Virus record (IMG/VR): IMGVR_UViG_3300021091_000232
Coordinates: 1-33,679 of that record
DNA from: a virus
Direction: 5' to 3' (one strand)
Length of the DNA stretch: 33,679 nt
Positions 3,268 through 24,700 of this stretch are shown here, piece by piece. Under the pieces are notes generated by a model. It saw only the letters and a program-made list of their open reading frames with translations, ran no database searches and was not told the DNA's origin. How positions within the stretch are numbered: the stretch's first letter is position 1; every line of letters starts with the position of its first letter. The translations under genes and the position numbers were made by a program.

Positions 3268-3268
3268 A

Positions 3269-5209
3269 ATGCCTTTTACTAAATTTACTAATCTCGATTT
3301 TGATCAGATAAAGACCTCAATCAAAGATTACCTTCGTGCGAACTCCAATTTTACGGATTTTGACTTTGAGGGGTCTAATTTTTCTATCTTAATCGATACT
3401 TTAGCATATAATACTTATATTACAGCATTTAATTCAAACATGGTTGTGAATGAGTCCTTTTTGGACTCAGCAACAGTAAGAGAAAATGTTGTATCATTAG
3501 CAAGAAATATTGGATATGTACCTCGTTCCAGATCAGCATCAAGTGCGGTAGTTTCATTTACGGCAGAACCAAAGAGTTCTACATCTACTCTTACTCTGCA
3601 GGCAGGTTTAGTATGTACTGGAACTGCAAGTGGGACTTCTTATGTGTTTTCAATTCCAGAAAACACAACAGCAACTGTAAAGAATGGAGTCGCAAGTTTT
3701 AATAATCTTACAATTAAACAAGGAACATTTCTTAAAAAACAATTTACAGTTAATGGATCTCTAGATCAAAGATTCATTCTAGACAACTCATTTATTGATA
3801 GTTCCACAATTAGAGTTTATGTAAAGGGTACTTCTGATACTGGACTTGGTAGAACATATAATCTTGTAGAAAATATTTTTGATATTGATTCTACTTCAGA
3901 AATTTATTTACTTCAAGAAGTAAAGGATGAAAAATATGAATTACTTTTTGGCGATGGTATTTTTGGTAAAAAACTTGAAAATAATGCGGTAATTACTGTA
4001 ACTTATATTATAACCGATGGGAAAGAAGGGAATGGGGCAAACTCATTTAGTTTTGCAGGAACATTTAAGAATGAAAATTCTATCGTAGAAACTTTAAACA
4101 ATACCATACAAGTTACTACTGTTCAAAATTCACAGAATGGATCTGATATTGAAAGTATAGATTCGATTAAAAACTTTGCACCAAGATTATATTCTTCGCA
4201 ATATAGAGCAGTGACTGCAAAGGATTATGAAACTATTATCAAATCAAAAATATATGCAGATACAGAATCTGTTTCTGTAATTGGTGGTGAAGAAATGACA
4301 CCGCCTCAATATGGCAAAGTATTCATAAGTATCAAACCAAAAAATGGAACTTATGTTTCAGATTTTAATAAACAGCAAATAAAAAATAAACTTAAGCAAT
4401 ATACTGTAGCAGGTATTAATCCTGAAATAGTAGATCTTAAAATTTTATATGTTGAAATTGATTCTTCAATTTATTACAATTATTCTCAAGTAGATAATAT
4501 TGAGAACTTAAAGACAAAAGTAATTAAATCTTTAAATTTATATGCACAATCTCCTAATTTAAATTCTTTTGGTGGAAGATTTAAATATAGTAAAGTTCTT
4601 CAAGTTATTGATAACACTGATGCTGCAATTACATCAAATATTACAAAAGTTAGAATTCGAAGAGATTTAAAGGCACAGATTAATGCACAAACTCAATATG
4701 AAATTTGTTATGGTAATAAGTTTCATATAAATCCAGAAGGTAGAAACATTAAATCTACTGGATTTAAAATTTTAAATGTACCAGATACTGTTTATTTGAC
4801 TGATACTCCAAGAAGAAATTTAGATGGTTCATTGTCAAATATTGGTGTCATATCAATTGTAAAAGAAACACCAGTTTTAGTCAGCACTGGATCAACAATA
4901 ATTAGTAAAATACCTGTTGTTGTTCAATCTGCAGGGACAGTTGATTATGAGGCAGGTGAAATAAGATTAAATTCTTTAATGATTACATCTACATCATTAG
5001 ATCAAGATATTATTGAAATTCAAGCTTTTCCAGAATCAAATGATATTATTGGGTTAAAGGATTTGTATCTATCTTTTAACATCTCAAAAAGTAAAATAAA
5101 TATGATTAAAGATGTTATTGCTTCTGGCGATGATACATCTGGAGTTGTTTTCTCTACAAACGATTACTACAGTTCAAGTTATTCAAACGGGGCATTAACG
5201 AGGTCATAA
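3269..5209 (+). CDS. 6: Baseplate wedge subunit gp6
   Basis: At 646 aa this is close to T4 gp6 (660 aa). gp6 belongs to the gp6/J-like baseplate family and forms the inner ring joining the wedges. The N-terminus shows the family pattern: FTNLDFDQIKTSIKDYLR, then GSNFSILIDTLAYNTYITAF and SFLDSATVRENVVSLARNIGY. A middle block (around LLFGDGIFGKKL and RAVTAKDYETIIKSKI) corresponds to the baseplate J core. It begins one base after gp25 and ends one base before the giant gene, so the three are almost certainly co-transcribed. No truncation or frameshift is seen. Confidence 0.9.
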   Translation: MPFTKFTNLDFDQIKTSIKDYLRANSNFTDFDFEGSNFSILIDTLAYNTYITAFNSNMVVNESFLDSATVRENVVSLARNIGYVPRSRSASSAVVSFTAEPKSSTSTLTLQAGLVCTGTASGTSYVFSIPENTTATVKNGVASFNNLTIKQGTFLKKQFTVNGSLDQRFILDNSFIDSSTIRVYVKGTSDTGLGRTYNLVENIFDIDSTSEIYLLQEVKDEKYELLFGDGIFGKKLENNAVITVTYIITDGKEGNGANSFSFAGTFKNENSIVETLNNTIQVTTVQNSQNGSDIESIDSIKNFAPRLYSSQYRAVTAKDYETIIKSKIYADTESVSVIGGEEMTPPQYGKVFISIKPKNGTYVSDFNKQQIKNKLKQYTVAGINPEIVDLKILYVEIDSSIYYNYSQVDNIENLKTKVIKSLNLYAQSPNLNSFGGRFKYSKVLQVIDNTDAAITSNITKVRIRRDLKAQINAQTQYEICYGNKFHINPEGRNIKSTGFKILNVPDTVYLTDTPRRNLDGSLSNIGVISIVKETPVLVSTGSTIISKIPVVVQSAGTVDYEAGEIRLNSLMITSTSLDQDIIEIQAFPESNDIIGLKDLYLSFNISKSKINMIKDVIASGDDTSGVVFSTNDYYSSSYSNGALTRS

Positions 5210-5210
5210 T

Positions 5211-8200
5211 ATGATACAGATGGGGTTTGAATCTAGAATCAAAGTACAGCAAATAATTAATAACCAATTACCAGAATTCATTTTAGATGAAAGTCCAAAA
5301 GCAGCAGAATTTTTAAAGCAATATTATATTTCTCAGGAATATCAAGGTGGTACTGTCGATATTGCAGAAAATCTTGATCAATATTTAAAACTCGATAATT
5401 TGACTCCAGAGGTAGTAGTTGGATTTACTACACTTTCTTCTGCAATTTCTTCTAGTGCAACAACAATTCAAGTTTCATCTACAAAGGGGTTTCCTCCAAC
5501 TTATGGATTATTAAAAATTGATAATGAAATTATTACTTACACTGGATTAACAACTAACACTTTTACTGGATGTATAAGGGGTTTTTCTGGAATTACAAAT
5601 TATCATAAAGACTTAAGTTCTGAAGAATTAGTTTTTTCTGATACAGATCAAGCATCTCATACATCTTCATCTAAAGTACAAAACCTAAGTGTTTTATTTC
5701 TACAAGAATTTTATAAGAAACTTAAAATTACATTAACACCAGAATTAGAAAATAAAGATTTTGTTTCTAATTTAAATGTTGGTAATTTTATAAAAGAAGT
5801 AAGAACTTTATATCGATCTAAAGGAACTGATGAATCTTTTAAAATTTTATTCAATGTTTTATTTGGAGAAACTCCAAAGGTAATTGACCTTGAAAGATTT
5901 CTTTCTAAACCATCTTCAGCATCATATTCACGCAGAGCAGTAATAGTTGCAGATGCAATTTCTGGAGATCTATCAAAATTAAAAGGACAAACTATATTTA
6001 AAAATACTGATACTAATACCTCAGCATCAGTATCAGAAGTTGAAGTAATCCGCAGAAAAGGAAAAACATATTATAAAATTTTTCTTTTTATTGGATATGA
6101 TGATTCATTTTCAACCATTACAGGACAATTTAATATTACTGGAAGTACAAAAAATTTAGAATATGTTGATATTAATAGTACTAACATCATTGTAGATTCT
6201 ACCATAGGATTTCCAAAATCTGGAAAAGTTTATTGCGGAGAAAATGTAATCAAATATACTGATAAAAGTATTAATGAATTTTTTGGTTGTTCTGGAATCA
6301 CATCAGGTATTTCTACAGCATCTACAATTTATTCTGATGAAACTTATTATGGTTATGAAAATGGAGATCTAAGTAAAAAAGTTATATTCAGAATCACAGG
6401 TGTTTTATCGGGGTATAATTCTTCCACGAATGATTCTTCAATTAGTGTAGGTGAAAATATAAAAATTAAAAATATTGGTGAAATTATTAAAAATCCAGAA
6501 ATTGATAAAACATATAAGGAAATATTTGCAAATAGTTGGATTTACAATACGAGTTCAAGATATCAAGTATCTAAAGTTATTTCAACTACTCAATTATTAT
6601 TAGCAGATAATGTTGATAAATCTAGTTTAAAAGTCGGTGATGATATTGATATTCTTATTAGAGACACGCAAATAATAGTTAGATCTAATCTAAAAATTAA
6701 TGAGATCAGTGGAAATGAAATAACTATCTTAGTTCCTCCACCACCTGATTCTATTGATCTAAGTTCTTTAACTGATAATTATGATATCAGAAGAAAAATT
6801 AAAAAATCTGTTAGTTCTTCAGTTCCATTAGAATTTAATTCTACTTTTGCTGATATTCAAAATGTTTATAATGAAAATGATGAATATTTATATGTAACAT
6901 CAAATTCACTACCATCATATCAAATAACAAAATCAATTTTTTCATATAATGCATCTAATGTTAGTGATCAAAATTCAACCACTGGATTGTATTCTAAAAT
7001 TGTTTTTTCAAGTAAAATCTCTTTTATAACTGGAAGTGAAGTATATTATAAACCATCAGGAAGTCCAATATCGGGATTATCTGAAGGAGTTTACTATGTT
7101 GAAGTTTTTTCAGGTAACCTAGAGATTAGATTATATGCTTCTAGATCTGTTATAGGCACTGAGAATTACATATCTTTTGGATCATTATCATCAGGAATTC
7201 ATAATTTTACTTTAAATTCTCAAAAAGAAAGAATTTTATCACCACAAAAATTACTTAGAAAATTTCCATTAGAAGTTAATATTGGAGATGGAGAGTCTGA
7301 TTTAACTACTCCTGGAACAGTAGGACAATTGATAAATGGTGTTGAAATTATTAGTTACAAATCCAATGATAAAGTTTATTATGGACCATTGGAATCAGTT
7401 GATGTTTTAAATGGTGGAGATGGATATGATGTAATTAATCCTCCTCTATTATCAGTATCAACAGGAAATGCATTATTACAACCGATTGTAAGTGGTTCTG
7501 TAGAAAAAATTTACGTTACTCCACAAGATTTTGACTTAGATGTTGTGGTTTCAGTTGCAATTACTGGTGGAAATGGATTTGGTGCTGTTTTTGAACCAGT
7601 TATTGAAAAAAGAAGGAGAGAAATTGAATTTGATGCTAGACAAACTTCAATCGGAGGGGGAGTAGATGTAACCTATGAAACGATTACATTTTTAACAGAT
7701 CATAATTTAGTAGATGGACAACCAATTGTTTATCGACCAGGAAATAATCCCTTACTAGGTATTGGAACTTTTAATGGATTAAATGAAAACACTGGAAATA
7801 CTTTAAAAAGTGAATCAACATATTATACTAAGTTCATAAGCAATAATACAATACAACTTTACCAATCACTTTCAGACTACAGGTCTGGTATAAACACAGT
7901 TGGATTTACTACTGCTGGAAACTCTGGAATTCAAAAATTTGCAACTGAACCAAAAAATACTCTTTCTCAAATTAAAATTTTAAATGGTGGAAGTAATTAT
8001 ACAAATAGAAAATTAAGAGTTACTTCTTCAGGAATTTCTACAGAAACTGATATCGTTTCTTTCACTAATCATGGATTCACTGATGGTGACTTAGTTACAT
8101 ATTTTAGTAGTGGTTCAACAATATCAGGATTATCTACTTCAAATCAATATTATATTCTTAAGACTGATAATGATAAATTTAGACTATCAGATGCTGGAGT

Positions 8201-11200
8201 AGGTGGCACTAACAGAAGCAATTATTTAAGAAGAAAATATATTAGCTTAGGATCGACAGGTAGTGGATATCATACATTTAATTATCCAGAAATATCAATA
8301 GATATTAAATATTCTCCCGTTGGATTAGGTACTACACAATATTCAAATTCAATTTCAGTATCTCCAATAGTAAGAGGAAAAATTGTAGGTGTATATGTCT
8401 ATGAACAAGGATCTGATTATGGATCATCAATTTTAAACTATCATAAAAAACCATCTATCTTAGTGAAAACTGGTAAAAATGCTCAACTATATCCAACTAT
8501 CATTAATGGTAGAATAACCAGTGTTTCTGTTTTATATTCTGGAACCGAATATTATTCAACTCCAGATATTGTTGTTTCTGGTAGTGGTATAGGCGCTATT
8601 CTTCAACCAGTTATTGTTAATAATAAGATATCCAGAATAATTATAGTCAATGGTGGATCGGGTTATTCCACTACAGACACACTTATTACCGCAGTTCCAA
8701 CTGGTAAAAATATTATTTTTGACCCTCAAGTAAGATCTTTAGATATTAATAATAATTTTCTTTATAATGATGTTAATAGTACAACTATAGAGTCTAATGA
8801 AATTATTAAATCTTCAAATAATAATTTACAATACTTTATTTCTGGACACTCTGTATTAACTACAAGTATTTTTAAAGATGATGGAATAGACCATTCTCCA
8901 ATTATTGGATGGGCATATGATGGAAATCCAATTTATGGTTCTTACGGTTATCCAGATCCAAAAAATAAAAATTCAAAACCAATCAAAAGATTAACCTCTG
9001 GTTATACATCAAATACAAATAATATTTTAAATCGACCATCTGAATTCTCTAACGGATTTTTTATTCAAGACTATAAATTTACAAATTCTGGAGATTTGGA
9101 TGAATATAATGGAAGATTTTGTGTTACTCCAGAATTTCCTAATGGGGTATATGCATACTTTGCAACATCTATAATTGATAGTGAAAATAATATTGTTGGT
9201 AGTTTTCCATACTTCATTGGTGATAGATATAGATCAAAATTTGTTAATGAGAATAAAACTTTAAATCAATCATTTGATTTTAACAATTCAAATTTAATTC
9301 GTAATACTTTCCCATATAAAGTTAATAGTAAATATGCTGATAATGATTTTATCATTGAATCTAATGAAATTATCAATCAAAGTGTAAATGTAGAATCCAT
9401 CGTATCTGGATCAATTGATAATTTTGAAATTATTGATTCAGGAGATGATTATAAGGTAGGTGATTTATTACAATTTGATGAAACCAATACTGATGGTGGC
9501 GGATTAATTTCTCAAGTTGAACTTATTAATGGAAAGGAAATATTAAACTTACAAACTTCTATTGAATCTTATTATAATGCCACTTTTACCTGGAATAGTA
9601 AAGATAAAATTAAAGTAAAAATAAATCCAAATCATAATCTTAAAAATTCTGATTATGTTAATATATCGGATTTTTCAACATCATTAAGTTTCTTAAATGG
9701 ATATCAACAGATTGGAGTTAGTTCTTACACATCAACTCTAATTAAAAATATTACGGCATCTGCTAATATAACTGACATATATGTTTCTAATATTCCTGAA
9801 AATATTTCAATTGGTAGTAGTATTGGAATAGGAACTGAAACTTTATCAGTTTTAAATATTTTTGATACTCAAAATATAGTTAGAGTTTCTAGGGAATTGC
9901 CTGGAATATCTCACACTTTGACTACAACAGTAAACTTTATTCCAGATACTTTTACGATCAATAAATCTACAGAATATTTTGAATCTAAATTTAATGATAA
10001 GATTTATTTTAATCCAAAATATTCCGTTGGAGTTGGAACAACTTCCGGAATTGGAGTTGCTGTTACATTTAATGTTGGCATTCAAACTAACAATATTATT
10101 TCTATTCCTACACAATCAATTTACCTACCAAACCATTCATTTAAAACAAATCAAGAAGTAATTTTTAAAAAATTATCATCTTCTTCACAAATTTCAGTAG
10201 CTAATACTTCTGGCAGTTCTTCGTTTAATTTACCTTTTAGTGGAGATAGTCAAACAGTTTACATTATTAAAAAATCGCCTGATTATGTAGGAATTGTAAC
10301 CCAAATTGGATTAACTACAACAACTGATGGTTTATTCTTTATATCTAATGGATCCGATGATTATCAATACTCTTTAGAATCTAATTTTATACAAGTAAAG
10401 GGAAATATTGAAAAAATTGATTCTTTAGTAACAATAACAACTTCTCATAACCTAACATCAGGAGACATTATAAATCTCTCTATCAAACCAAGTCTTTCTG
10501 TTGGAATCGGTACATCAACATCAATAAAAGTAAAAAGAGATTCTTTAACTAATTATATTTTAATAAATCCAATTGAATTTAATTCATCTGGAATTAATAC
10601 ATTAACAGATGAAATTACTTTACCTTCACATAATTTGAAAACAGGAAACAAAGTTAAGTATTCAGCAAATAATGTATCTTCTGGATTAACTACAGGATTT
10701 TATTATGTTTATAAAGTTGATAATAATAAAATTAAATTATGTGAAACCTATGTTGATTCTATTGACACAATTTCACCAAATATTGTAAATATTAGTAGTA
10801 TTGGCGGATCCTCTCAGATTATTTCTTTAGTTAATCCACCTTTAACAATATTCAATAATAATAACATTATTTTTGATTTATCAGATTCTTCTTTATCTGG
10901 ATATAATTTTAAAATATTTTATGATCAAAATTTCAAAGATGAATTTATTTCAACAGGTTTAACAACTACATTCTCAATAAGTAAGAATGGTATTATTGGA
11001 GTTTCTCCAAGTGCATCTTTGACAATTGATAATGGTGAAGGATTACCAAATCCATTATTCTATACTCTGGAGAAATCTGGACATATAATCGCATCAGACA
11101 AAGAAGTTAAAAATTATTCTCAAATTAATTTTGTGGATAGTTATTACAATAATTCTTATAAAATTTCTGGAGTTGGTGCCACTACATTTACAATATCATT

Positions 11201-14200
11201 AAAAAATTATCCAGAAAAAACTTCTTATAATCAATCCGAATGTGATATTTTAAAATACACAACATCATCAATCTCTGCTCTTGGTGGAGTTTTTAAAATC
11301 AGAACAATTTCTCCTGGTTATAATTTTAAAAAATTACCCACATTTAATGGTATAAATTCTGTTCTTGGAAGTGGTGCATATATTATTCCAAAATCTAATA
11401 GTATTGGTAAAGTTAATCAGATTAGAATTTTAAATGAGGGATTTGAATATTCTTCAGATAAAACTTTAAAACCAGAAGCTTTAATACCTAGTTTTATAAC
11501 AATTAAAAATTCAAAGACAATAGAATCAATTAGTATTATTGATGGTGGAAAAAATTATACTTATCGCCCAGATTTAATTATTGTCGATACAAATACTGGT
11601 AATAAAATTGATACTGGACTGTTGACTGCAAATGTTTCAGGATCAAGTATCAACTCAATTTCTATAGAGGTTCAACCAAATGGTCTTCCAGAATCTATAG
11701 TTACTGTAAGAGCAATTAATAATACCAATGGTGTAGGCATTCAATCTATACAAGCATCTTCTTCGGGAATTGTAACATGTTTTATTGTTACTCCTCTTTC
11801 TGGTTTTGAAATAGAACCTTTTGCACAATATGATAGAATATTTGTAGAGGGTGTACAAAAATCAAATCAAAATGATGATGGTGTCAATTCTGAAGATTAT
11901 GGATATCAATTTTTCACAATTACAGAATATAATAATGTTGCAAATCCAAGAAAACTAGAATTTAGTTTATCTGGACTAACTACAAATCCAGGAACACCAA
12001 AAATAATAGAAAATTTATATGGAACTATTGTAAATTATAATAACTATCCAAAATTTAATGTTACTCAGAAATTTTCTAACTTTATTATAGGAGAAATTTT
12101 AGAAGTAAATAGTGGAAATGGTTTTTCTCAATCAAATTTAAGAATTACAGAATCTAATAATAATTATATTAAAGTAACTGGGTCTGATGTTTTACAAAAA
12201 AATAATGTATTGAGAGGTATTGAATCGGGATCTTTAGCAACAGTTAATTCAATTAAAGAGTCTTCAGGACAATTTACAATTGACTATGCATCAATTCAAC
12301 GAATTGGATGGTTAGATGATACTGGCAAACTTGACGAAGATACTCAGGTTATTTCTGATAATAATTATTATCAGAATCTCTCATATTCAATTAAGAGTAA
12401 GCAAGAATGGAATGATATCATTAGTCCAATAAACAACATTGTCCATCCAATTGGACTTAAAAACTTTGCCGATACTGAAATTATTGAAAATGTAACCACA
12501 GGTGAGATTATTTCTACAGATCAAATAAAATTATTATATAATCTTAGTAGTCAAAATAGGGTAGATACAATTAATAACTATGATTTAGTTGTTGATGTTG
12601 ATACTTTTGGAGATTCATCAAAGTTTTTAAAATTTAGTAGGAAAATATTATCAGATTATTTTGAATGTAAAACTAATAGAGTTTTAGAAATAGATGATAT
12701 AAGTTCAGAATTTTCATCTTCAGATAAACCAATTGATACTTCAACAAAAATTGTAGATATTATTCCAGCAAACAAATATAACAGATATTTAGTTCAAGTT
12801 TCAAATAAAGACTACTCACAATCACAATTTACAGAAATTATAGTTTTAAATAATAATTCTGATATTTTTACTCTTGAAAAAGGATCAATTAGTACTGAAC
12901 TATCTCCAGAATTTGGTTATGAAACTAATATTATGGGAGATGTTTTTGGGTATATTGATGAATTAGGAAATTGTTATTTAAAATTTGATCCTAAGGATGG
13001 ATATGATACTACCTATAACATCAAGTATTTAAATACAAGATTTACAAACTATACATCGGGTATTGGAACTACCTCAATTGGATATGTTGATTTATTTGGA
13101 GTAACTTCAACAGTTTCTCCAGATTCAACTTCCAATTTAATACAAAAATCTACATCAAAATTAGAATCAATACATTCAGGCATCCATTTAATTAACAATG
13201 TAACAAATGAAATGAGTTATGTTGAAATTTTTGTAGATCATGATGGAACAAATACAAATCTTTCTGAATTTTATTTTGATACTAAAGATGGTTTGAGTTC
13301 TAATTTTATTGGATCATTTGGAGCATCTATAAGTAGTGGAATTCTATCATTACAATATACAAATACCTCTAGTAATAGTATAACTTTAAGAACTAGAAAT
13401 GTTGGATTTGGTACAACAGCAATTGGGGCAGGTACTTATAGATTTAAACAAACTGGCCAGGTTGACGGATATGAAAGCACCGTTAAATATGACTCATTAT
13501 ATTCAAATGTTTCAACAGCATCAACTATCATAGGATTTGATACGAATGATTTTACTTCTATAAAGTCTACGATAAAAGTTAGTATCGGACAAACGAGTGC
13601 ATTGCATCAAGTAATGTTGATTTCAGATTCATCAAATGTATATACAACTCAATATCCATTTTTATCAATCGGAAGTACAAGTGGTATTGGAACTTTTGGT
13701 GGAGAAATGTCTGGTTCTATAGTTTCACTAGTATTTTATCCAGATCCTTCAATTTCAGGTGATATTGAAATTTTAAGTTTTAATGAAAGTTTTTATAGGG
13801 AAAATGATGAAGTAAATATTCCACCAAGTTTGAACTATAGTAATGTTACTGAATCAGTTGGAGTCGCTAAGTATTTTGCAATCAATGATCAAGACATTAA
13901 TAAACTTGACTTTGAACTGAAATATCAAGGCATACCAATTTTTATGAAAACATTTAATCCATCGGATTCTTCTATTTTAGATCAATCTACAGGTAAATTT
14001 ACGATAGTAAATCACTTCTTTAGCACTGGTGAAGAATTAATTTATCGACCAAAATCAACTTTTGTTGGAGTTGCGGCAAGTTCGGTTGGAATTGGATCAA
14101 CACTTAATCATGTTGGAGTTGTCACTGATATTCTGCCTCAAACTGTATATGCAATTAAAGTTTCGAATGATGTATTTAAATTAGCAACAAGAAAAGAATA

Positions 14201-17114
14201 TGCAAATAATGGTATTGCTGTTACATTTACATCTATTGGATCTGGAAATGCTCACGAATTGGAGATGGTAAAGAAAAATGAAAAATCTCTTATTTCGATT
14301 GATAATGTCATTCAATCTCCAATTGCATACTCACTACTAGATTATACCGTTAATAATGGTGGAACAATAGGAACTTCCTCTACAATTTTTGGATTAAGTG
14401 GAATTTCATCCATTCAATTGGGAGATATTTTAAAAATTGATAATGAATATATGAAAGTTGAAAATGTTGGTTTGGGTACGACATACTCTGGACCAATATC
14501 CTTTGCCGGAACATTTCCATTAGTAAGTGTTAGAAGAGGATTTGTTGGATCTTCAGCGACTTCACATTCAGATTCAACTTCTGTATCTGTTTATAGAGGT
14601 TCATTTAATATTACTAACAGTCGCATTTATTTTACAGAGCCGCCCGAAGGAAGTTTAGAAGATCAGTTGTTTATAGATTATGATAATCTTGCGGAAGCTA
14701 GATCATATTTTAATGGAAGAGTATTTTTAAGAAAAGATTATACTTCTAATCAAGTTTATGATAATCTTTCAGAAAAATTTACAGGTATAGGACAAACTTA
14801 TACACTAACAGTTGGTGGAGCTAATACTGTTGGATTAGGAACTAGTGGTGGAAATGGTATTGTTCTTATTAATGGAATATATCAAACGCCAACTACAGAA
14901 AATAATACTAATAATAATTTTAGAATAATTGAAAATTCATCTATTGGAATTAGTAGCGTAATTTTCTCAGGAATTACATCTTCAAATGGATCTATTATTA
15001 TTTCAGAATCAGATGTAAACCTGAATCAACTACCCAGAGGTGGAATTATTGTTTCTCTTGGATCAACTCCAGGTCTTGGTTATGCACCCCTCATAGGCGC
15101 TGCAATAACGGCAATAATTGGTGCAGGTGGATCTATTACTTCCATTGGAATTGGAACATCTGGCAGTTGGGGGTCTGGTTATAGAAGTCCAGTTTCGATA
15201 GCAGTGACTGAAAGTGGTCATACAGGACTAGGAGCAACAATTAATGCCGTTGTAGGTGCTGGTGGAACACTTTCATTCGTTATTGTTGGTGGTGGTACAA
15301 ATTATACAAATCCAACTATCAATATATCTTCACCAAGTTATAGTAATCTTTCTATGATTGGTGTTTCTAGATTAAGCACTGGAGCAACAACTGAATGTGG
15401 TATTGGTTTACTTTTAAATGTAGATGTTGGGGCAAGTTCAACAACAGGAATAGGTTCAACTTTATTTGAAGTTACTGGTTTTGACATTGTAAGAAATGGT
15501 TATGGATTTAAAAAAGGTGATGTAATTAAACCAGTAGGTCTTGTTACAGCATACGGTCTTACACAACCAATTACCGAATTTGAATTAACAATCCTTGATA
15601 CTTTTACAGATTCTTTTTCGGCTTGGCAATTTGGAGAATTAGATTATATTGATTCTATTAAAAACTTACAAAATGGAGTAAGAAAAAGATTTCCTCTTTA
15701 TTACAATTCTCAATTGTTAAGTTTTGAAAGAAGTTCTAGTGATGAAGATTCTCGAGCAATAGATTTTAATTCATTGCTTGTAATATTTGTAAATGGAATT
15801 CTACAACAACCAGTTGCTACATATCAATTTGATGGTGGAGCATCATTTGCATTTACTGAAGCACCTAAGAGTGAAGATAATGTGTCAATTTATTTCTATA
15901 AAGGTAGTCCTTCTGATAGTCAATATAAAGATGATGTATATGAAACTATTAAATCTGGAGATGATGTCCAAGTTTTTAGTAATAATAATTCTTTGACAAA
16001 TACAATAACACAATCTTCAAGAACAGTAACTAATATTATTTCATCCAAGGTACTTGAAACTAATCTTTATAATTTACAAGGTGTTGATGATACTAATTTT
16101 AAACCAGTTAGTTGGACAAAACAAAAAGTTGATAAAATTATTAATGGATATTTAGTTTCTAAAGCAAGAGAATCTTTAGAACCTCAAATTTATCCAACAT
16201 CCAAAATTATCAAAAATGTAAGTCAAAATGATAGTCAAATATTTGTAGATGATATATCTTTGTTTAATTATGAAGCAGAACCTTCAGTTGATTTTGACGC
16301 ATTAATTGTTTCTGGGTTACAAGATCCAATATCAGGTGTTGTTACTGCTGTGGTTTCTAGTGCTGGAACAATTCAATCTTTAGTTATTAGTAATGTTGGT
16401 AGTGGATATACAGGATCTTCAATTGAAGTAAATATTGCATCACCATTACCTACAATTGTAGCATTTGGAACTACTTTATCAGTTACTCCTGGAACTAGAG
16501 CGACTGCTTCTATTTCCATTATAAATGGATCACTTTCAACAGTATCAATTATAAATGCAGGATCTGGTTATACTACATCAAATCTGCCACAAGTAATCAT
16601 TCCACTTCCAGATCCAATTTATGAAAATATTACTAAAATTACTAATATTAGTGGAACCTCAGGAAATGTTATAGGAATAGGCACTACTGTAGGAATTGGG
16701 ACAGATCTTGCTCTTAATTTTACTTTGTCTTCGATGAATAATATTGAAGTAGGAAATCCAATTTATATTTTTAATACTAAAGTTGGTAATGGTGTAACAT
16801 CAATTATAAATGATAATTCTAGTATTGTTGGTGTAGGAACCACTTTCTTAGATAATGTGTATTATATTAGTGGAAAAAATGTTTCTGCAGGAATTATTAC
16901 TTGTAATGTTCATTCTCAAACATCAATTGTTGGAATTGCCACAACTGGGTCTAATATTGGTAAATTTTCATGGGGTAAATTATCAGGATTTACTAGGTCT
17001 TCATCTCCGATATCGATAGGTATTTCTGGATTTACAATTAATTCTGGTTTATCAACATTCCCAACAATTCAAAGAAGGGGATTTGGATTAAAGGGTATTG
17101 GTCCTATTAGTTAA
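5211..17114 (+). CDS. Giant modular baseplate/tail structural protein, 3,967 aa (position of T4 gp7)
   Basis: One uninterrupted ORF of 11.9 kb. The N-terminus (FESRIKVQQIINNQLPEFI) leads to a conserved core, LYRSKGTDESFKILFNVLFGE, from residue 200, typical of large phage baseplate proteins. An IDNEIITYTG module (103-112) lies inside this region. The rest is largely a chain of beta-type repeats. GGxGY-type motifs occur at residues 735, 926, 1067, 1111, 1148, 1411, 2112, 3730 and 3784. Several HNLxxGxxVxY modules also occur. A YHYH-type domain spans about 1224-1320. The C-terminus ends in RRGFGLKGIGPIS, a cyanophage-style ending. A GAGG ribosome-binding site 7 bases upstream supports the start. 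Its place between genes 6 and 8 matches gp7 (1,032 aa in T4), but homology to gp7 is inferred from order, not shown by sequence. Confidence 0.85.
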   Translation: MIQMGFESRIKVQQIINNQLPEFILDESPKAAEFLKQYYISQEYQGGTVDIAENLDQYLKLDNLTPEVVVGFTTLSSAISSSATTIQVSSTKGFPPTYGLLKIDNEIITYTGLTTNTFTGCIRGFSGITNYHKDLSSEELVFSDTDQASHTSSSKVQNLSVLFLQEFYKKLKITLTPELENKDFVSNLNVGNFIKEVRTLYRSKGTDESFKILFNVLFGETPKVIDLERFLSKPSSASYSRRAVIVADAISGDLSKLKGQTIFKNTDTNTSASVSEVEVIRRKGKTYYKIFLFIGYDDSFSTITGQFNITGSTKNLEYVDINSTNIIVDSTIGFPKSGKVYCGENVIKYTDKSINEFFGCSGITSGISTASTIYSDETYYGYENGDLSKKVIFRITGVLSGYNSSTNDSSISVGENIKIKNIGEIIKNPEIDKTYKEIFANSWIYNTSSRYQVSKVISTTQLLLADNVDKSSLKVGDDIDILIRDTQIIVRSNLKINEISGNEITILVPPPPDSIDLSSLTDNYDIRRKIKKSVSSSVPLEFNSTFADIQNVYNENDEYLYVTSNSLPSYQITKSIFSYNASNVSDQNSTTGLYSKIVFSSKISFITGSEVYYKPSGSPISGLSEGVYYVEVFSGNLEIRLYASRSVIGTENYISFGSLSSGIHNFTLNSQKERILSPQKLLRKFPLEVNIGDGESDLTTPGTVGQLINGVEIISYKSNDKVYYGPLESVDVLNGGDGYDVINPPLLSVSTGNALLQPIVSGSVEKIYVTPQDFDLDVVVSVAITGGNGFGAVFEPVIEKRRREIEFDARQTSIGGGVDVTYETITFLTDHNLVDGQPIVYRPGNNPLLGIGTFNGLNENTGNTLKSESTYYTKFISNNTIQLYQSLSDYRSGINTVGFTTAGNSGIQKFATEPKNTLSQIKILNGGSNYTNRKLRVTSSGISTETDIVSFTNHGFTDGDLVTYFSSGSTISGLSTSNQYYILKTDNDKFRLSDAGVGGTNRSNYLRRKYISLGSTGSGYHTFNYPEISIDIKYSPVGLGTTQYSNSISVSPIVRGKIVGVYVYEQGSDYGSSILNYHKKPSILVKTGKNAQLYPTIINGRITSVSVLYSGTEYYSTPDIVVSGSGIGAILQPVIVNNKISRIIIVNGGSGYSTTDTLITAVPTGKNIIFDPQVRSLDINNNFLYNDVNSTTIESNEIIKSSNNNLQYFISGHSVLTTSIFKDDGIDHSPIIGWAYDGNPIYGSYGYPDPKNKNSKPIKRLTSGYTSNTNNILNRPSEFSNGFFIQDYKFTNSGDLDEYNGRFCVTPEFPNGVYAYFATSIIDSENNIVGSFPYFIGDRYRSKFVNENKTLNQSFDFNNSNLIRNTFPYKVNSKYADNDFIIESNEIINQSVNVESIVSGSIDNFEIIDSGDDYKVGDLLQFDETNTDGGGLISQVELINGKEILNLQTSIESYYNATFTWNSKDKIKVKINPNHNLKNSDYVNISDFSTSLSFLNGYQQIGVSSYTSTLIKNITASANITDIYVSNIPENISIGSSIGIGTETLSVLNIFDTQNIVRVSRELPGISHTLTTTVNFIPDTFTINKSTEYFESKFNDKIYFNPKYSVGVGTTSGIGVAVTFNVGIQTNNIISIPTQSIYLPNHSFKTNQEVIFKKLSSSSQISVANTSGSSSFNLPFSGDSQTVYIIKKSPDYVGIVTQIGLTTTTDGLFFISNGSDDYQYSLESNFIQVKGNIEKIDSLVTITTSHNLTSGDIINLSIKPSLSVGIGTSTSIKVKRDSLTNYILINPIEFNSSGINTLTDEITLPSHNLKTGNKVKYSANNVSSGLTTGFYYVYKVDNNKIKLCETYVDSIDTISPNIVNISSIGGSSQIISLVNPPLTIFNNNNIIFDLSDSSLSGYNFKIFYDQNFKDEFISTGLTTTFSISKNGIIGVSPSASLTIDNGEGLPNPLFYTLEKSGHIIASDKEVKNYSQINFVDSYYNNSYKISGVGATTFTISLKNYPEKTSYNQSECDILKYTTSSISALGGVFKIRTISPGYNFKKLPTFNGINSVLGSGAYIIPKSNSIGKVNQIRILNEGFEYSSDKTLKPEALIPSFITIKNSKTIESISIIDGGKNYTYRPDLIIVDTNTGNKIDTGLLTANVSGSSINSISIEVQPNGLPESIVTVRAINNTNGVGIQSIQASSSGIVTCFIVTPLSGFEIEPFAQYDRIFVEGVQKSNQNDDGVNSEDYGYQFFTITEYNNVANPRKLEFSLSGLTTNPGTPKIIENLYGTIVNYNNYPKFNVTQKFSNFIIGEILEVNSGNGFSQSNLRITESNNNYIKVTGSDVLQKNNVLRGIESGSLATVNSIKESSGQFTIDYASIQRIGWLDDTGKLDEDTQVISDNNYYQNLSYSIKSKQEWNDIISPINNIVHPIGLKNFADTEIIENVTTGEIISTDQIKLLYNLSSQNRVDTINNYDLVVDVDTFGDSSKFLKFSRKILSDYFECKTNRVLEIDDISSEFSSSDKPIDTSTKIVDIIPANKYNRYLVQVSNKDYSQSQFTEIIVLNNNSDIFTLEKGSISTELSPEFGYETNIMGDVFGYIDELGNCYLKFDPKDGYDTTYNIKYLNTRFTNYTSGIGTTSIGYVDLFGVTSTVSPDSTSNLIQKSTSKLESIHSGIHLINNVTNEMSYVEIFVDHDGTNTNLSEFYFDTKDGLSSNFIGSFGASISSGILSLQYTNTSSNSITLRTRNVGFGTTAIGAGTYRFKQTGQVDGYESTVKYDSLYSNVSTASTIIGFDTNDFTSIKSTIKVSIGQTSALHQVMLISDSSNVYTTQYPFLSIGSTSGIGTFGGEMSGSIVSLVFYPDPSISGDIEILSFNESFYRENDEVNIPPSLNYSNVTESVGVAKYFAINDQDINKLDFELKYQGIPIFMKTFNPSDSSILDQSTGKFTIVNHFFSTGEELIYRPKSTFVGVAASSVGIGSTLNHVGVVTDILPQTVYAIKVSNDVFKLATRKEYANNGIAVTFTSIGSGNAHELEMVKKNEKSLISIDNVIQSPIAYSLLDYTVNNGGTIGTSSTIFGLSGISSIQLGDILKIDNEYMKVENVGLGTTYSGPISFAGTFPLVSVRRGFVGSSATSHSDSTSVSVYRGSFNITNSRIYFTEPPEGSLEDQLFIDYDNLAEARSYFNGRVFLRKDYTSNQVYDNLSEKFTGIGQTYTLTVGGANTVGLGTSGGNGIVLINGIYQTPTTENNTNNNFRIIENSSIGISSVIFSGITSSNGSIIISESDVNLNQLPRGGIIVSLGSTPGLGYAPLIGAAITAIIGAGGSITSIGIGTSGSWGSGYRSPVSIAVTESGHTGLGATINAVVGAGGTLSFVIVGGGTNYTNPTINISSPSYSNLSMIGVSRLSTGATTECGIGLLLNVDVGASSTTGIGSTLFEVTGFDIVRNGYGFKKGDVIKPVGLVTAYGLTQPITEFELTILDTFTDSFSAWQFGELDYIDSIKNLQNGVRKRFPLYYNSQLLSFERSSSDEDSRAIDFNSLLVIFVNGILQQPVATYQFDGGASFAFTEAPKSEDNVSIYFYKGSPSDSQYKDDVYETIKSGDDVQVFSNNNSLTNTITQSSRTVTNIISSKVLETNLYNLQGVDDTNFKPVSWTKQKVDKIINGYLVSKARESLEPQIYPTSKIIKNVSQNDSQIFVDDISLFNYEAEPSVDFDALIVSGLQDPISGVVTAVVSSAGTIQSLVISNVGSGYTGSSIEVNIASPLPTIVAFGTTLSVTPGTRATASISIINGSLSTVSIINAGSGYTTSNLPQVIIPLPDPIYENITKITNISGTSGNVIGIGTTVGIGTDLALNFTLSSMNNIEVGNPIYIFNTKVGNGVTSIINDNSSIVGVGTTFLDNVYYISGKNVSAGIITCNVHSQTSIVGIATTGSNIGKFSWGKLSGFTRSSSPISIGISGFTINSGLSTFPTIQRRGFGLKGIGPIS
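6990..8280 (+). repeat. Coding repeat cluster: HxxxxG/YYV beta modules in the giant protein
   Basis: Three degenerate protein repeats lie in tandem here. Each runs from a strand and loop (such as FTNHGFTDGDLVTY or LTDHNLVDGQPIVY) through a GLS-type turn and a YYxxK or YYV strand to an IQLY or FRLS strand. Further copies of this module are seen near 10110-10780 and 14000-14270. Copies are similar at protein level but not identical in DNA. Confidence 0.6.
8880..9170 (+). other. YHYH-type domain inside the giant protein
   Basis: Residues 1224-1249 contain DHSPIIGWAYDGNPIYG and 1295-1320 contain NGRFCVTPEFPNGVYAYFAT. These two blocks, in this order, are the hallmark of the YHYH domain family, where a secreted-type domain ends in a Tyr-His-Tyr-His motif. 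Here that motif reads YAYF, so the name-giving histidine positions are lost. The domain has no known catalytic role. It probably acts as a structural or binding module on the particle. Confidence 0.6.
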
Positions 17115-17132
17115 AAAGACCTTTTTATATGA

Positions 17133-17140
17133 TATAAATA
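17133..17140 (+). promoter_or_regulatory. T4-type late promoter before gene 8
   Basis: TATAAATA is an exact match to the T4 late-promoter consensus. It sits in the only sizeable gap (45 bases) of the baseplate block, 19 bases before the gp8 ATG. T4 late promoters have a single -10-like box, read by RNA polymerase carrying gp55. The position implies that gene 8 and the genes after it can be transcribed independently of the giant gene. Confidence 0.75.
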
Positions 17141-17159
17141 CAGAAAAAACAATATTCAT

Positions 17160-18728
17160 ATGTCTGCAATTGTAACAGATCAATTTAGAATACTTAATGC
17201 AACTAGTTTTGTAGATTCTGTTAATGATTCTTCAAATTCTTACTATGTTTTTGTTGGATTGTCTAATCCTAATGTTTCTGGGTTTGGTAGAAATGACAAT
17301 TGGGATACAACAGTACCAAATCCAATAGATAATAGTGATTATTTAAATCATTACAAATCAACAATTTTATTTGGTAAAAAAATTACAAGTGCCAATATTA
17401 GAAGAGTAATTAGAAAAATTAATTGGATTTCTGGCACACAATATGAAATGTATAGATCAGATTATAGTATAATAAATCCTTCACCAACTACTGGATCAGT
17501 AAGATTATATGATGCAAATTATTATGTTTTAAATTCTGACTATAGAGTTTATATTTGTATTGATAATGGTTCTTCTGGAATTAAAACTACGGGAAATGCT
17601 TCACAAATTGAACCAACATTTACAGATTTAGAACCATCTAAACTTAGTGATGGGTATACTTGGAAATATCTATATACAGTGTCTCAAAGTGATATTATAA
17701 AGTTTGATTCCACTGAATATATTACACTTCCAAATGATTGGGATACCTCTACAGATTCTCAAATTACTGCGGTTAGAGAAAATGGAAATTCAAATTTAAA
17801 TGAAAATCAAATTAAAAAAGTTTATATACAAAATCAAGGTTTAGGATATGATACTGGAACTAAATCTTGCAATTTAGTTGGTGATGGTTCTGGCGGAACT
17901 GTTTCAGTAACAATTGACACATCAAGTAAAATTAGTGATGTGGTGGTTACATCTGGGGGAAAAAATTATACATATGCTCTAGTCGATTTAGGAACTACTA
18001 AGATGGGATTAAACGGAGTTTTTGCAGAATTAATACCAATTATTCCTCCATCTAAAGGTCATGGTTTTAATATCTATCATGAATTAGGTGCAGATAAGGT
18101 ACTAGTATATGCAAGATTTGATGATTCTACCAAAGATTTTCCAGTAGATAGTAAATTTGCACAAGTTGGAATTTTAAAAAATCCAACAGTTTATGATTCT
18201 ACAGGAATCAATACCACAGTATATAATCAGAATGATTTTTCTGCCCTTTATTCGATGGCATTAACTGGAATAATTGGTGGAACTCCTTCAGTTGGTGATA
18301 AAATACAACAACTGCAAGCAAATGATAAAAAATCTTTTGGTTGGGTTGCTTCCTATGATTCCGAGACTAATATTTTAAAATATTATCAGGATAGATCTTT
18401 ATACTATAATGGTGGAGGTGGATCAAATCATACGGATTTTATTGGAATAACATCATTTTTTGATTCTACAGGAAATTTAGTTGGATTTAATACAAGTACA
18501 CAAATAACAAGCAGTGGATGGAGTGCAAATGTTGATGCATCTATTGACAACACAAGTACATTGACTATTTCAAATAAAATTATAAATCTTGGCGTCCAAT
18601 TTACGAATGGTCTTGCAAATCCAGAGATAAATAGTAAGTCTGGGGATGTAATTTATATTAGTAATAGGCAAACAGTTACAAGAAATTCTAGACAAAAAGA
18701 AGACATTAAAATTATCCTGGAATTTTAA
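17160..18728 (+). CDS. 8: Baseplate wedge subunit gp8
   Basis: 522 aa against 334 in T4. gp8 is a dimeric wedge protein that binds gp7, gp6 and gp10. Both ends fit gp8. The N-terminus has the AIVTDQFRILNATSF strand and the YVFVGLSNP block. The KLSDGYTWKYLYTV segment matches the T4 GDGYVWEYLFEI block. The C-terminus, GDVIYISNRQTVTRNSRQ then EDIKIILEF, matches T4 GEMIYMENRPPI and EEINILFTF. The extra length lies mainly in the middle, where two repeat motifs are inserted, GLGY at 227-230 and GGKNY at 266-270. These are the same modules as in its neighbours. A perfect late-promoter box precedes it, and the next gene starts 3 bases after the stop. Confidence 0.85.
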   Translation: MSAIVTDQFRILNATSFVDSVNDSSNSYYVFVGLSNPNVSGFGRNDNWDTTVPNPIDNSDYLNHYKSTILFGKKITSANIRRVIRKINWISGTQYEMYRSDYSIINPSPTTGSVRLYDANYYVLNSDYRVYICIDNGSSGIKTTGNASQIEPTFTDLEPSKLSDGYTWKYLYTVSQSDIIKFDSTEYITLPNDWDTSTDSQITAVRENGNSNLNENQIKKVYIQNQGLGYDTGTKSCNLVGDGSGGTVSVTIDTSSKISDVVVTSGGKNYTYALVDLGTTKMGLNGVFAELIPIIPPSKGHGFNIYHELGADKVLVYARFDDSTKDFPVDSKFAQVGILKNPTVYDSTGINTTVYNQNDFSALYSMALTGIIGGTPSVGDKIQQLQANDKKSFGWVASYDSETNILKYYQDRSLYYNGGGGSNHTDFIGITSFFDSTGNLVGFNTSTQITSSGWSANVDASIDNTSTLTISNKIINLGVQFTNGLANPEINSKSGDVIYISNRQTVTRNSRQKEDIKIILEF

Positions 18729-18731
18729 AAG

Positions 18732-21700
18732 ATGGCTCAAAAAACTAACCTTAATGTAAGTCCATATTTTGATGACTTTTCCGAACCAACTATAGGTGCT
18801 AAAGATAAAGATTACTATAAGATTTTATTTAACCCAGGAAAAGCAATTCAAACTCGTGAGTTAAATACTCTACAGTCAATATTGCAAAATCAAATAGAAA
18901 CTTTTGGTAGTCATATTTTTAAAGAAGGATCTGTAGTAATTCCAGGAAATATCACTTATGATGGACAATTTTATGCTGTTAGAGTAAATCCTAAGCAATA
19001 TGATGTTGATGTTACCACATATTTACAAAATTTTGTAGGTAAAAAAATTACAGGACAGGTATCTGGAATTACTGCAACTGTTCAGTTAGTTCAACTTCCA
19101 AATTCAGATATTGAATATGCCACACTTTATGTAAAATATATTGATTCTGACTCAGATTTTAAAATTAGTCAATTTCAGAATAACGAAACTTTATCTGCAT
19201 CAGAAACTGTAGATTCAATTACATCTGGTATTCCTTTTGCTACAACAATTTCATCTGAAGCATCTTCAATTGGGTCTGCAGCTTCTATAGGTGAAGGTGT
19301 ATATTTTATTAGGGGTATTTTTGTAAGAGTTCCTCAACAAACAATTATTTTAGATTATTATACTAACACTCCATCATATAGAGTTGGTTTGAGAATTAAT
19401 GAACAAATCATTACTGCTAAGGATGATAGCACTCTTTATGATAATGCAAAGGGATTTACAAATTATGCTGCTCCAGGAGCAGATAGATTTAAAATTTCAT
19501 TAATATTAAGTAAAAAACTTTTAACTGATTTAGATGATACTGATTTTGTAGAACTTTTAAGAGTTAGAAATGGTGCTATTCAAAAAATTCAAGTTAAATC
19601 TAGTTATTCTTTAATTAGAGATTATTTGGCGCAAAGAACATATGATGAATCTGGAAATTATACAGTAACACCATTTCAATTTACATTAAATAATTCTTTA
19701 AATAATAGACTTGGGAATGATGGTTTATTTTTCAGCAATGAAAAAACGAATCAGGGAAATACTCCAAATGATGATTTAATGTGTGTAAAACTTTCTCCAG
19801 GAAAAGCTTATGTAAGGGGATATGATATAGAAAAAACTGGTGTTGAAATTATAGATGTACCAAAACCAAGAACTACTCAAAAAGTTTCATCAGTAAATAT
19901 TCCCTTTGAAATGGGAAATTTATTGAGAGTTAATAATGTAACAGGGGCACCAAAACAAAAAGAAATAGTTTATCTACAAAATAGAAGAAAAAATAGTACA
20001 ATAAATCCTGCAGGATCAACTATTGGATCGGCAAGAATTTATAATTTTAATGTAACAGATGCTGCATATAGTGGTGCATCAACAAACTGGGACATTTATC
20101 TTTATGACATTCAAACTTATACTGAATTAACATTAAATCAATCTGTTTCTTCATCGGAAATTCCTGCAACTTCATTCATTAAAGGAAAAAGTAGTGGCGC
20201 AAGTGGTTATGCAGTTTCAGCAGGATCTGGGACAAATATAATTAGTGTAAGACAAACTTCAGGAACTTTTTCTGTCGGTGAACAAATTTTTATTAATGGA
20301 GTTGAATTATATCCAAGAACAATTTCTTCTGTAAAAATTTATGGAATTGATGACATAAAATCTGTATATCAGTCAACAGCAGTATCTGGATTTACAACAG
20401 CGTTTTTATCAGATACTCAATTGGATATAATTTCTAGACCAGAACTTATTACTATAACTGCGGCAAGTGGTGGAATTAGTACCGCTACAGTTTCATCTCC
20501 AGCAACCTTTAGTGGAATTAAAACAGATACTATAATTAGATATCAAAGAGATGGTGCATCAAGTGAAATTTATAATCGTGTTGTTTCAATATCACCATCT
20601 TTAAATTCTATGACTCTAGAAGCGGTTACATCTGTTTCTAATATTTGCGATGGTTCTCTTCCTGGTGTTGGTTTAACTTCTAAGGTTTCATATTCTTTAG
20701 GAGTTTCAATATTAAAAAATGAAGAAAGAGGATTTTTATACGCACAGTTACCAAATTCAAATGTTTCATCAACAGATTTAAGTGCATCAACAATTACTTT
20801 TTCGGCACAATCAAATAGTACATTTACTGTATCAACAAATACATTAACTGTAAACACAGGAAACTTTAATTTAGGAATAAATTCAACATCAGTAAACTTT
20901 GAAGCATATGATGAAGAAAGATATTCTATTTTCTACAGTAATGGTACTATAGAAAATTTAACATCAGATAAAGTTAATGTGAGTGGTAATCAGGTTACAT
21001 TTTCAAATATTTCTAATGGACAAATTTCGGCAATTAATGCAACTTTTGTTAAAAATGGGATTCAAAGTAAAATTAAACAATTTAATAGATCAAAAATAAT
21101 AAATATAACCTTATCTAAAGATCCTCAATCTGGTGTTGGAGTCAATACATCGATAAATGATGGTCTTACATATAATCAATATTATGGATTAAGAGTGCAA
21201 GATGAAGAAATAAGTCTTAACTATCCAGATGTTGCAAATGTCATTGCTGTTTATGAATCTTTAGATACTAGTAGTCCAGTTTTAGATCAAGTTTTATTTA
21301 ATTCAATTGCAAATGTTAGTAATAATGCAATTATAGGCGAAAATATTATAGGTAGTACAAGTAAATCAGTTGCAAGAGTAGTATCAAAACCATCTTCAGA
21401 TACACTAGGTATTGTTTATTTAAATGATAGTAAATTTATTTCTGGTGAAAATGTTACTTTTGAAGAATCAAATGTCAATACAACAATTGCATCTATTACA
21501 TTAGGAAAATATAGAAATATTACAACAAAATTCATATTAGATAAAGGTCAAAAAGAACAGTATTATGATTATTCCAAATTAATTAGAAAAAATGGAGAAA
21601 GTTCTCCATCCAAACAACTTTTAATTATATTTGATTATTATTCAGTACCTTCAAGTGATACTGGAGATGTATTTACTGTAAATAGTTATGATGAGGAAAG

Positions 21701-24700
21701 ATTTTTATCAGATATTCCATCTATTGGTGCAAATAGTTTAAGAGCATCTGATACTTTAGATTTTAGACCTAGAGTACCAGTTTTCACTAGCACTACAGCA
21801 TCTCCATTTGATTTTTCCTCTAGAACATTTGGTACAGATCCAAAAATTATTATGTCACCAAATGAAAGTGCATTGATTGGTTATGATTTTTACTTAGGTA
21901 GGATTGATAAACTTTATCTGGATAAATCTGGCGTATTTACAATTCTACAAGGTATTCCATCTACAGATCCGAAAGCACCTAAGAATCCAGACGAGGTAAT
22001 GGAAATTGCTACAATTACATTACCGCCATATTTGTATAATCCAAAAGACGCTTCAATATCTTTAGTTGATAATAGAAGATATACAATGCGTGATATTGGT
22101 AAAATAGAAGATAGAGTTGAAAACTTAGAAAGAGTAACTTCATTATCCCTATTAGAACTGAATACTCAAACTTTACAAATCCAAGATGCTCAGGGACTTA
22201 ATAGATTTAAAACTGGATTTTTTGTAGATGATTTTAAAAATAATAACTTATTAGATACAGAATTTTCGACTATAGAAATTGATTCAGTAAATAATGAATT
22301 AAGACCAAAAGTTTCTAAAAATAGTATTAGTTTAAAACCAGTATCTGCACAAGATATAACTGATGAAGATTTAGATTTAAACAGTAATTTTGAATTACTT
22401 GATTCAAATGTTCAAAAGACTGGAGATGTAATTACACTAAAATATGATTCAGTTGGTTGGATTGAGCAAACATTTGCAACAACAGTTGAGAATGTTAACC
22501 CATTCCATGTTGTTTCTTATAGTGGAAGTATAATATTAAATCCATCAAGTGATAGTTGGGTAAGAACAATTAGGTTAGCAGATGTTTCTATAACAGAGAA
22601 AAAGAAAAAGAGAGTAGGTGTAACAGGAACTTTTTCAGTTGTTAGACGTACAACAACAGTAACAGAAGAAGATCGATTAATTTCGAGTGGTTCTGAATTA
22701 TACATGAGATCTAGAAACACTCAGTTTAGTGCTGTTAAGTTAAAATCACTAACTAGATATTATCAATTCTTAGACGGAAATAGCGGAGTAGATTTCATAC
22801 CTAAACTTGTAGAAATTGCTAATGATTCAACACTTCAAAATTATGGAGCGTCTACTGCTTTCCAAGTAGGAGAAACTGTAATTGGAACTGCTAATGGAAA
22901 CAATTTAATTAGTTTTAGAGTTGCTGCATCAAATCATAAAGAGGGTGCATTCAATTCACCATCAGTAACATACACAACTAACCCATATTTGTCTTCAGAA
23001 ACTATACCAGAGTTTTACAGTGCTTCATCTAAAATTTTAAATATTGACATATCTTCTTTATGTTCAGAAGTACAAGGTTTATACTCTGGGTATTTAACAA
23101 CGGGTATGATTTTAGTTGGTCAAACAAGTAATGCTGTTGCATATGTAAAAGATCTAAGATTAATCACTGATATTAATGGTTCTATAACAGGATCATTCTT
23201 CTTAAGAGACCCAAATGGAAATCCTCCTCCTGCTGTTAGAATATCAACTGGTTCAAAAGTTTATAAGTTAACATCAAGTTTAACTAATGAAACTCCACTA
23301 CCTGGGGATACATTAATTTCCTCTGGAGAAACAATTTATAAATCAGAGGGAACCTGGGAAGAGAGGCAAAAAGTTACGACCACAACGACAACAACATATT
23401 TTGTTGATCCACTTGCACAATCTTTTTCTGTAGGTGGTTCTACAGAGGTATCTGATGGTATTAAACCAGAGGAAGATGTAAATGGCGCATATTTAACTGC
23501 AGTTGACATATTCTTTGCAACTAAAGATTCAAATAATGCACCTCTTACAGTAGAAGTTAGAACCGTTGAATTAGGAACTCCAACTAGAATTATTGTTGGC
23601 AATCCAGTAACATTAAAACCATCCGATATTACAACTTCCGCAGATGCATCTATAGCAACTAAAATAACATTTGATTATCCAATTTATCTTGCTCCCAATT
23701 TAGAGTACGCTATAGTTTTACTTGCTCCACAATCTAACGAGTATCAAGTTTGGATTGCTGAAATGGATGCAAAAACAATTCAAACCAAAAATCTTCCAGA
23801 TACTCAGGCAATCAGATATTCTAGACAATTTGGATTGGGAAGTCTATTTAAATCTCAAAATGGTTCTATTTGGACTGCAAACCAATATCAAGATATGAAG
23901 TTTAAGTTATACAAAGCAAGATTTACTTCTACTTCAGGAAGTGCATTTTTCCATAATTCAACTTTAAATCAAAGTAATAATTATATACCTACACTAGAAT
24001 CCAACCCTATTACAATTTTACCAAAAAAATTAAAAGTTGGTGTCGCAACAATTACAGATTCTGGTTTAATATCTGCTTTATCTATAGGAAGAAAAGTTTC
24101 TGTCCAAAATGCTTCATATAATTATGGTTATATTGAAAAAACAGGAAATTCAGTTTCTTCAGTTGTGATCACTACGGGAGGTTCAAATTATAGCGTTTGT
24201 AATAGTGTGGAAACATATAATATTACCGGTAATGGTTCAGGATTAAAAGTAAACATTCTAAGTGTATCTAATGGTGCCATAACAGGAATTGGAATATCTG
24301 TTCCAGGTAATGGTTATTCAGTTGGTGATGTAGTTGGTATTGTTACATCAACTGTAAGTCCAGTTGGAGGTCGTGATTCACGTATTACAATTACCGGAAT
24401 ATCAAATGGGATTGATACATTATACTTATCAAATGTTCAGAGTAATTCTTTTAGTGTTGGCGTTTCTTCTTTAGCATATTACAACAATTCTGGAAATTTC
24501 ACGTCAACTGGAGCTACAATCACATCATCAACCTCTATCGGTGATGTATATTCTGGAAACTTCTTTAAGATTAATCATTATGAACATGGAATGTATTCAA
24601 ATGTAAATAAAGTCAGAATTTTTGATGTTCAAAGTGATATACCATCAACAACATTATCTACACCAGTATTAGTTTCCGATACTGCAATTAGTTTGGCGTC

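Follow-up and report, generated by a model that had tools for sequence, protein, structure and literature searches.

Phage T4 gp7 (PDB 5iv5, 5hx2) is encoded between gp6 and gp8, and its landmarks are the Gp7_helical region at residues 643-689, the KGT motif at 738 and domain V at 766-861. A minimal gp7 has been described in Vibrio phage XM1, where the orthologue (gp17, 242 aa) is present in one copy per wedge and six per baseplate, places a helix-turn-helix in the core bundle, and holds the tail spikes by an internal loop of its domain I (residues 80-106) together with its C-terminus (PMC10457771). Located on the lateral surface, the gp7-like part of AlgoCIS binds fibres and has been called a hotspot of re-engineering (PMC8894135). 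For the cyanophages, a review lists baseplates without recognisable T4 g10, g11 and g12 (PMC2984593), and gp7 itself has been stated to be absent from pelagi- and cyanomyophages, with VrlC substituting for it (PMC7029224).

The window analysed here is a whole IMG/VR record, a complete contig of 33,679 bases, and the virus is marine and cyanophage-like. A sequence-only reading had pointed out a single open frame of 11.9 kb, about a third of the window, between genes 6 and 8, and this frame is indeed intact and takes up 35% of the window. It lies among the following genes:

2866-3267: gp25, upstream of gp6
3269..5209, + strand: gp6, the baseplate wedge partner, 646 aa (phrog_219, E 6.5e-205; Pfam Gp6 domains)
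5211..17114, + strand: giant gp7, 3,967 aa, with an ATG start and no internal stop
17160..18728, + strand: gp8, baseplate wedge (PF09215, E 2.4e-9; phrog_438), with one C module (see below)
18732..25919, + strand: VrlC/DUF4815 protein, 2,395 aa (PF16075, E 1.9e-58)

The frame is not an artefact, since gp7 of phage S-SRM01 (3,895 aa) aligns with it collinearly from end to end (a single BLASTP match, residues 1-3966 against 1-3891, 55% identity) and another contig agrees with this region over 7,796 bases at 99.97%. At 28.7% GC, the chance of a random stop-free run as long as this is about 1e-147. The PHROG family phrog_2885, 'baseplate wedge subunit', matches the protein with 3,693 bits, while NCBIfam and the Pfam gp7 domain models gave no match and phmmer of the full-length protein against PDB returned nothing. 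Its place in the tail cluster, with gp6 before it and gp8 after it, is that of a gp7 gene, and the order gp25-gp6-gp7-gp8-VrlC is found both in the window and in nearly every relative examined. The protein is a real and intact member of the known giant-gp7 family. Upstream of the baseplate genes, positions 430-2524 of the window code for a glycosyltransferase-like protein, a PHROG-family 'ferredoxin' protein and, starting at TTG, an S-adenosylmethionine decarboxylase; such a gene set is typical of a cyanophage metabolic-gene pocket.

When its first 333 residues were used in tblastn, 461 phage records were matched, all of them from cyanophages or marine viruses and many already annotated as 'baseplate wedge initiator' or 'baseplate wedge subunit'; hundreds more giant gp7s are present in IMG/VR. 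In the annotated Kyanoviridae records, gp7 lengths run from 1,915 residues in S-B68 through 1,937 (S-CREM2), 3,048 (S-PM2), 3,533 (ACG-2014h), 4,067 (Bellamy), 4,225 (ACG-2014f), 4,314 (S-CAM7), 4,454 (P-HM2), 4,749 (S-T4), 5,195 (P-SSM2), 6,395 (S-RIM8) and 6,619 (S-SZBM1) to 7,124 in P-SSM7, so that the 3,967 residues of the window protein fall in mid-range. Its size is normal for its phage family and no singularity. The Kyanoviridae giants of phrog_2885 (S-SRM01, P-SSM2, S-CAM7, Bellamy, P-HM2, S-PM2, S-SZBM1) share its genomic position and the three core pieces described below, and their module families overlap with those of the window protein, whereas length and module number vary.

Since tblastn with T4 gp7 gave no cyanophage among the matches listed, profiles were needed to compare the two proteins. 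A profile of eleven N-termini of the giant family, aligned by hhalign with a five-member T4-type gp7 alignment, scored 73.0 (E 1.7e-8) and paired window residues 193-292 with T4 residues 727-813; the highest score from 200 column-shuffled gp7 alignments was 27.6, and nine further T4 proteins from the baseplate or the fibres gave E-values of at least 0.4. Searched against all PDB sequences, the N-terminal profile found only two matches, T4 gp7 (E 6.7e-4) and a T4-like gp7 (E 2.7e-3). The proposal that the region around LYRSKGTDESF is a baseplate core therefore agrees with the profile match, and the profile search of the N-terminus against baseplate structures leads to T4-type gp7 and nothing else in PDB. 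The E-values that the last iterated KGT model assigns to T4 are circular, T4 sequences being part of that model, and were excluded from the evidence. The helix-turn-helix region adds a weak collinear match to T4 gp7 644-671.

In addition to the profiles, an AlphaFold model of residues 1-325, of moderate confidence (pLDDT 66.5, pTM 0.40), predicts a helix-turn-helix, a beta insert, three helices and a beta domain. With this model, the best two of 350,542 Foldseek chains come from gp7-containing T4-type baseplate entries (303 and 300 columns). Both chains have roughly the length of gp7 (~1,000 residues); their TM-scores are low (0.14-0.15) despite the E-value rank, and we take this predicted-model ranking as supporting only. 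Judged by its profiles, the giant gp7 is homologous to T4 gp7 in its core.

The shared part corresponds to T4 residues ~640-890, a stretch of about 250 residues near the T4 C-terminus, in which the KGT helices, domain V and HPxG segment follow in one order in both proteins; no match was found outside it. In contrast, the first ~640 residues of T4 gp7, comprising the fn3-like and following domains, have no counterpart in the window protein, and no match to T4 domain VI was found there, whereas it has an extra 2,034 residues behind domain V and a further 1,543 at its C-terminus. To call the protein nearly four times T4 gp7, as had been done, is thus misleading, since only ~250 residues are shared and the first ~640 of T4 are missing.

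Comparison of the giant gp7 with its shortest relatives left three shared islands, at residues 16-388, 1046-1449 (with the YHYH domain) and 2327-2427, the last of which forms the C-terminus in S-B68 and S-CREM2. The protein can be divided as follows:

5241..5396, + strand: core piece 1, helix-turn-helix, residues 11-62, its profile found in all relatives
5448..5591, + strand: growth site 1, a beta module B, residues 80-127
5679..6089, + strand: core piece 2, KGT helices and domain V, residues 157-293, matching T4 gp7 727-813
6090..12191, + strand: growth site 2, an insertion of 2,034 residues (294-2327) with A, B and C modules and the YHYH domain
8880..9170, + strand: YHYH domain (PF14240, E 3.6e-26), residues 1224-1320, within growth site 2
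12192..12482, + strand: core piece 3, the YYQ...HPxG segment, residues 2328-2424, with profile matches in relatives
12483..17111, + strand: growth site 3, the C-terminal tail, residues 2425-3967, with A and C modules

The profile of piece 1, for which the AlphaFold model predicts helices at 7-19, 22-27 and 31-43, is found even in pf16, DLP6, Melnitz-3, HTVC008M and phiN3. The profile of piece 3 (98 residues, YYQ..SYsIkS......HPaG) gives one strong match in each of the 15 relatives searched, and against T4 gp7 864-890, directly after domain V, it scores 37.0 (maximum of 200 shuffles, 22.8), a match resting on ~27 residues. The Baseplate_wedge model PF23786 (284 positions) independently ties pieces 2 and 3 together: its positions 178-211 match piece 2 in 43 of 50 members (best 3.4e-7) and positions 217-278 match piece 3 in seven of 15 (best 5.3e-4), while for the window protein alone the two matches (E 0.007 and 0.031) fall short of the curated cut-off. 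The two pieces adjoin in the compact PF23786 family and are separated by 2,034 residues in the window protein. By these alignments, the gp7 core of about 290 residues is in three pieces and is split by some 2,000 residues of beta modules; the core of S-SZBM1 gp7 is split too, at residues 8-58, 665-803 and 3485-3580. The sequence-only reading had regarded the N-terminus as the only baseplate domain, and this did not hold, since the remaining core is at 2328-2424; for the same reason, much of the chain would be an insertion anchored at both ends and not a free tail. No description of a split gp7 core was found in the open-licence literature, and the internal layout thus appears new.

It could be argued that only the N-terminus is gp7-like and that the HPxG segment is a mere module, in which case the protein would be a short anchor with one long free chain. 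The T4 match of piece 3 is indeed short, and when the PDB sequences were searched with a profile of piece 3 alone, T4 gp7 was not among the matches. However, the segment is non-repetitive and, besides the N-terminus and the YHYH region, is what the family has kept, even in its 1,915-residue member; the order of the pieces is that of T4 gp7 and of PF23786; and in compact relatives the segment lies only 165-418 residues past domain V. We therefore regard a short anchor as unlikely and prefer the split core.

These compact gp7 relatives, from outside the cyanophages, were reached by searching with the HPxG segment. The gp7s of pf16, Melnitz-3, HTVC008M, DLP6 and phiN3 have the same three core pieces as the window protein, with an inner insertion of only 165-726 residues, and several of them are annotated as hypothetical protein or head closure; the split core explains why the gp7 genes of HTVC008M, Melnitz-3 and pf16 went unannotated or misannotated. 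From the end of domain V to HPxG, the distance in residues is 165 in pf16, 253 in DLP6, 288 in Melnitz-3, 418 in HTVC008M, 726 in phiN3, 1,489 in S-PM2, 2,034 in the window, 2,128 in P-SSM2 and 2,610 in S-RIM8, a size series and no proven order of events, and both ends of the insertion are recognised in every member. In S-B68 and S-CREM2, where the domain V match is partial, the distance is ~1,560-1,590. The other two growth sites vary as well: the gap between the helix-turn-helix and KGT is 2-4 residues in DLP6 and pf16 (site empty), 94 in the window and ~600 in S-RIM8 and P-SSM7, and the tail past HPxG ranges from 17 to 3,630 residues among the relatives, with 17-18 in S-B68 and S-CREM2 and 1,543 in the window.

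The remainder of the protein had been described as a long chain of beta modules, which was borne out by three repeat families and a predicted structure. Plain BLASTP of the protein against itself showed no repeats; segment-wise phmmer and iterated HMMs found them, namely module A (HGFxTGDxVxY) in seven copies, module B (STxGFPxxxGLLxIxdEIitYT) in two and module C (tNGGSGYtsPPtV) in ten, with 0, 0 and 2 matches, respectively, in five-fold shuffled controls. For residues 930-1345, AlphaFold predicts an almost entirely beta structure (pLDDT 78), and a Foldseek search of this module/YHYH model against PDB gave no significant fold match for any module. A structure of this phage or of one of its relatives did not turn up either. 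Segment-wise conservation showed that the tail evolves no faster than the middle and that no tip stands out as fast-evolving, so that the sequence bears no signature of host-range variation. Copies of module C are also present in the gp8, VrlC and gp14 homologues of the window, and the modules appear common to neck and baseplate proteins; this is probably why HTVC008M gp7 carries the label 'head closure Hc2'. The gp14 (head closure) homologue, at 28046-29437, has three C modules at its C-terminus (residues 194-382). A separate 183-aa protein, at 26650-27201, aligns with internal stretches of PHROG profiles whose names are baseplate wedge initiator or subunit, and module sharing may extend to this small gene. 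The idea that a conserved RRGFG peptide at the C-terminus might serve as an assembly tag was rejected, since the peptide is not common to the family.

The inner insertion also raises the question of a working enzyme, since a tail-associated metal-dependent hydrolase attacking peptidoglycan has been predicted for the YHYH domain (PMC7824862). The strength of the PF14240 match and the strong conservation of this region in nearly all relatives speak for such an enzyme in the giant gp7. The motif, however, reads YAYF in the window, with both motif histidines replaced, and Y-A/C-Y-F/Y, again without histidines, in the characterised relatives with a readable motif. One YHYH histidine is kept in a few contig relatives only (six of the 31 readable in A3), and another conserved histidine (1228) in 26 of 44. 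With both motif histidines lost, a functional hydrolase is very improbable here.

The published view, by which gp7 is absent, VrlC replaces it and the giant is an unrelated receptor-binding protein, has more in its favour than the statement itself: gp7 is too divergent for BLAST, T4 gp7 giving no cyanophage among the matches listed, and one genome labels the gene at the gp7 position VrlC and a later gene gp7. Yet it is the giant protein that matches T4 gp7, and VrlC does not (E 0.19-0.68); HTVC008M, the pelagimyophage reference, has gp6, a split-core gp7 of 1,016 residues, gp8 and VrlC in succession; and in S-CREM2 virions gp7 is found alongside the VrlC-position protein (450 peptides, 46%). 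As a gp7 substitute, VrlC is contradicted by its lack of sequence similarity to T4 gp7, and we give this view hardly any credence; the split-core result corrects the claim of a missing gp7 in pelagi- and cyanomyophages.

Presence of a giant gp7 on the particle has been shown in relatives by published proteomics, and by analogy would be expected for the window protein. Purified S-SZBM1 virions yielded 71 peptides of the 724-kDa gp7 (13.5% coverage, PMC9146016), and S-CREM2 virions 91 unique peptides (27.2% coverage, PMC10665884), corresponding to ~890 of 6,619 and ~530 of 1,937 residues. Since these figures exceed the core of ~290 residues, parts of gp7 outside the core must be present in both particles. 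That the giant chain is an assembly scaffold, cleaved or lost so that little is left on the mature particle, is most unlikely, because even this partial coverage (13.5-27%, given without peptide positions) exceeds the entire core in both phages, and gene length and order are conserved.

Taken together, we consider it likely that the window protein is gp7 and that its three-piece core anchors beta modules forming the outer baseplate, which probably contacts the cell. Position, homology, the order of the split, modules and conservation are read from the sequence; copy number, loop geometry, host contact and signalling are what we infer from them and from the XM1 and AlgoCIS precedents. The giant gp7 would be the third chain of a (gp6)2-gp7 wedge heterotrimer, with the helix-turn-helix (11-62) joining the core bundle with gp6. 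The 2,034-residue insertion would leave the wedge after domain V and return at 2328, and the 1,543-residue tail would leave it again past piece 3. Following the two precedents, six such chains (432 kDa each, 2.6 MDa in total) would form the outer baseplate directly, taking over peripheral tasks and fibre attachment, which in T4 are shared by the gp7 N-terminus and gp9-gp12, and would probably touch the cell and pass the contact signal to the core bundle. Like the window protein, XM1 gp17 has an N-terminal helix-turn-helix and extra material at an internal loop and the C-terminus, and growth sites 1 and 3 appear topologically equivalent to its attachment sites, a comparison made without direct alignment; XM1 binds separate spikes, whereas the window phage appears to grow its own modules. 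A skirt or host-contact surface, as had been suggested, is plausible and unproven. More tentatively, and with considerable doubt, the interrupted core may, throughout a family of abundant marine phages, give loops of thousands of residues tied to the wedge at both ends, and six loops with their six tails could form a built-in host-sensing apron that has replaced the separate T4 sensor proteins gp9-gp12 and acts directly on the contraction trigger. The value of the result lies in the split-core anatomy and the corrected borders rather than in size: the borders between wedge core and added modules give exact domain limits for cryo-EM model building and deletion tests.

Several database entries deserve comment. 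The S-SKS1 gp7 gene (20001-32387) is interrupted and runs through four overlapping frames (20001-22124, 22055-26860, 26845-30186 and 30168-32387), of which the first 7 kb are unannotated; the breaks may be sequencing errors or true frameshifts. In S-MbCM7 (KF156338), the gp7 and VrlC annotations (2405-13006 and 14980-21001) appear swapped, and the gp7 genes of Melnitz-3 (3090-5780), pf16 (7882-9453) and HTVC008M (2936-5986) are labelled hypothetical protein or head closure Hc2. ORF124 of S-CREM2, the positional homologue of the window VrlC and named a hypothetical protein, has 450 unique peptides at 46% coverage, the most among the proteins shown from its virion table.
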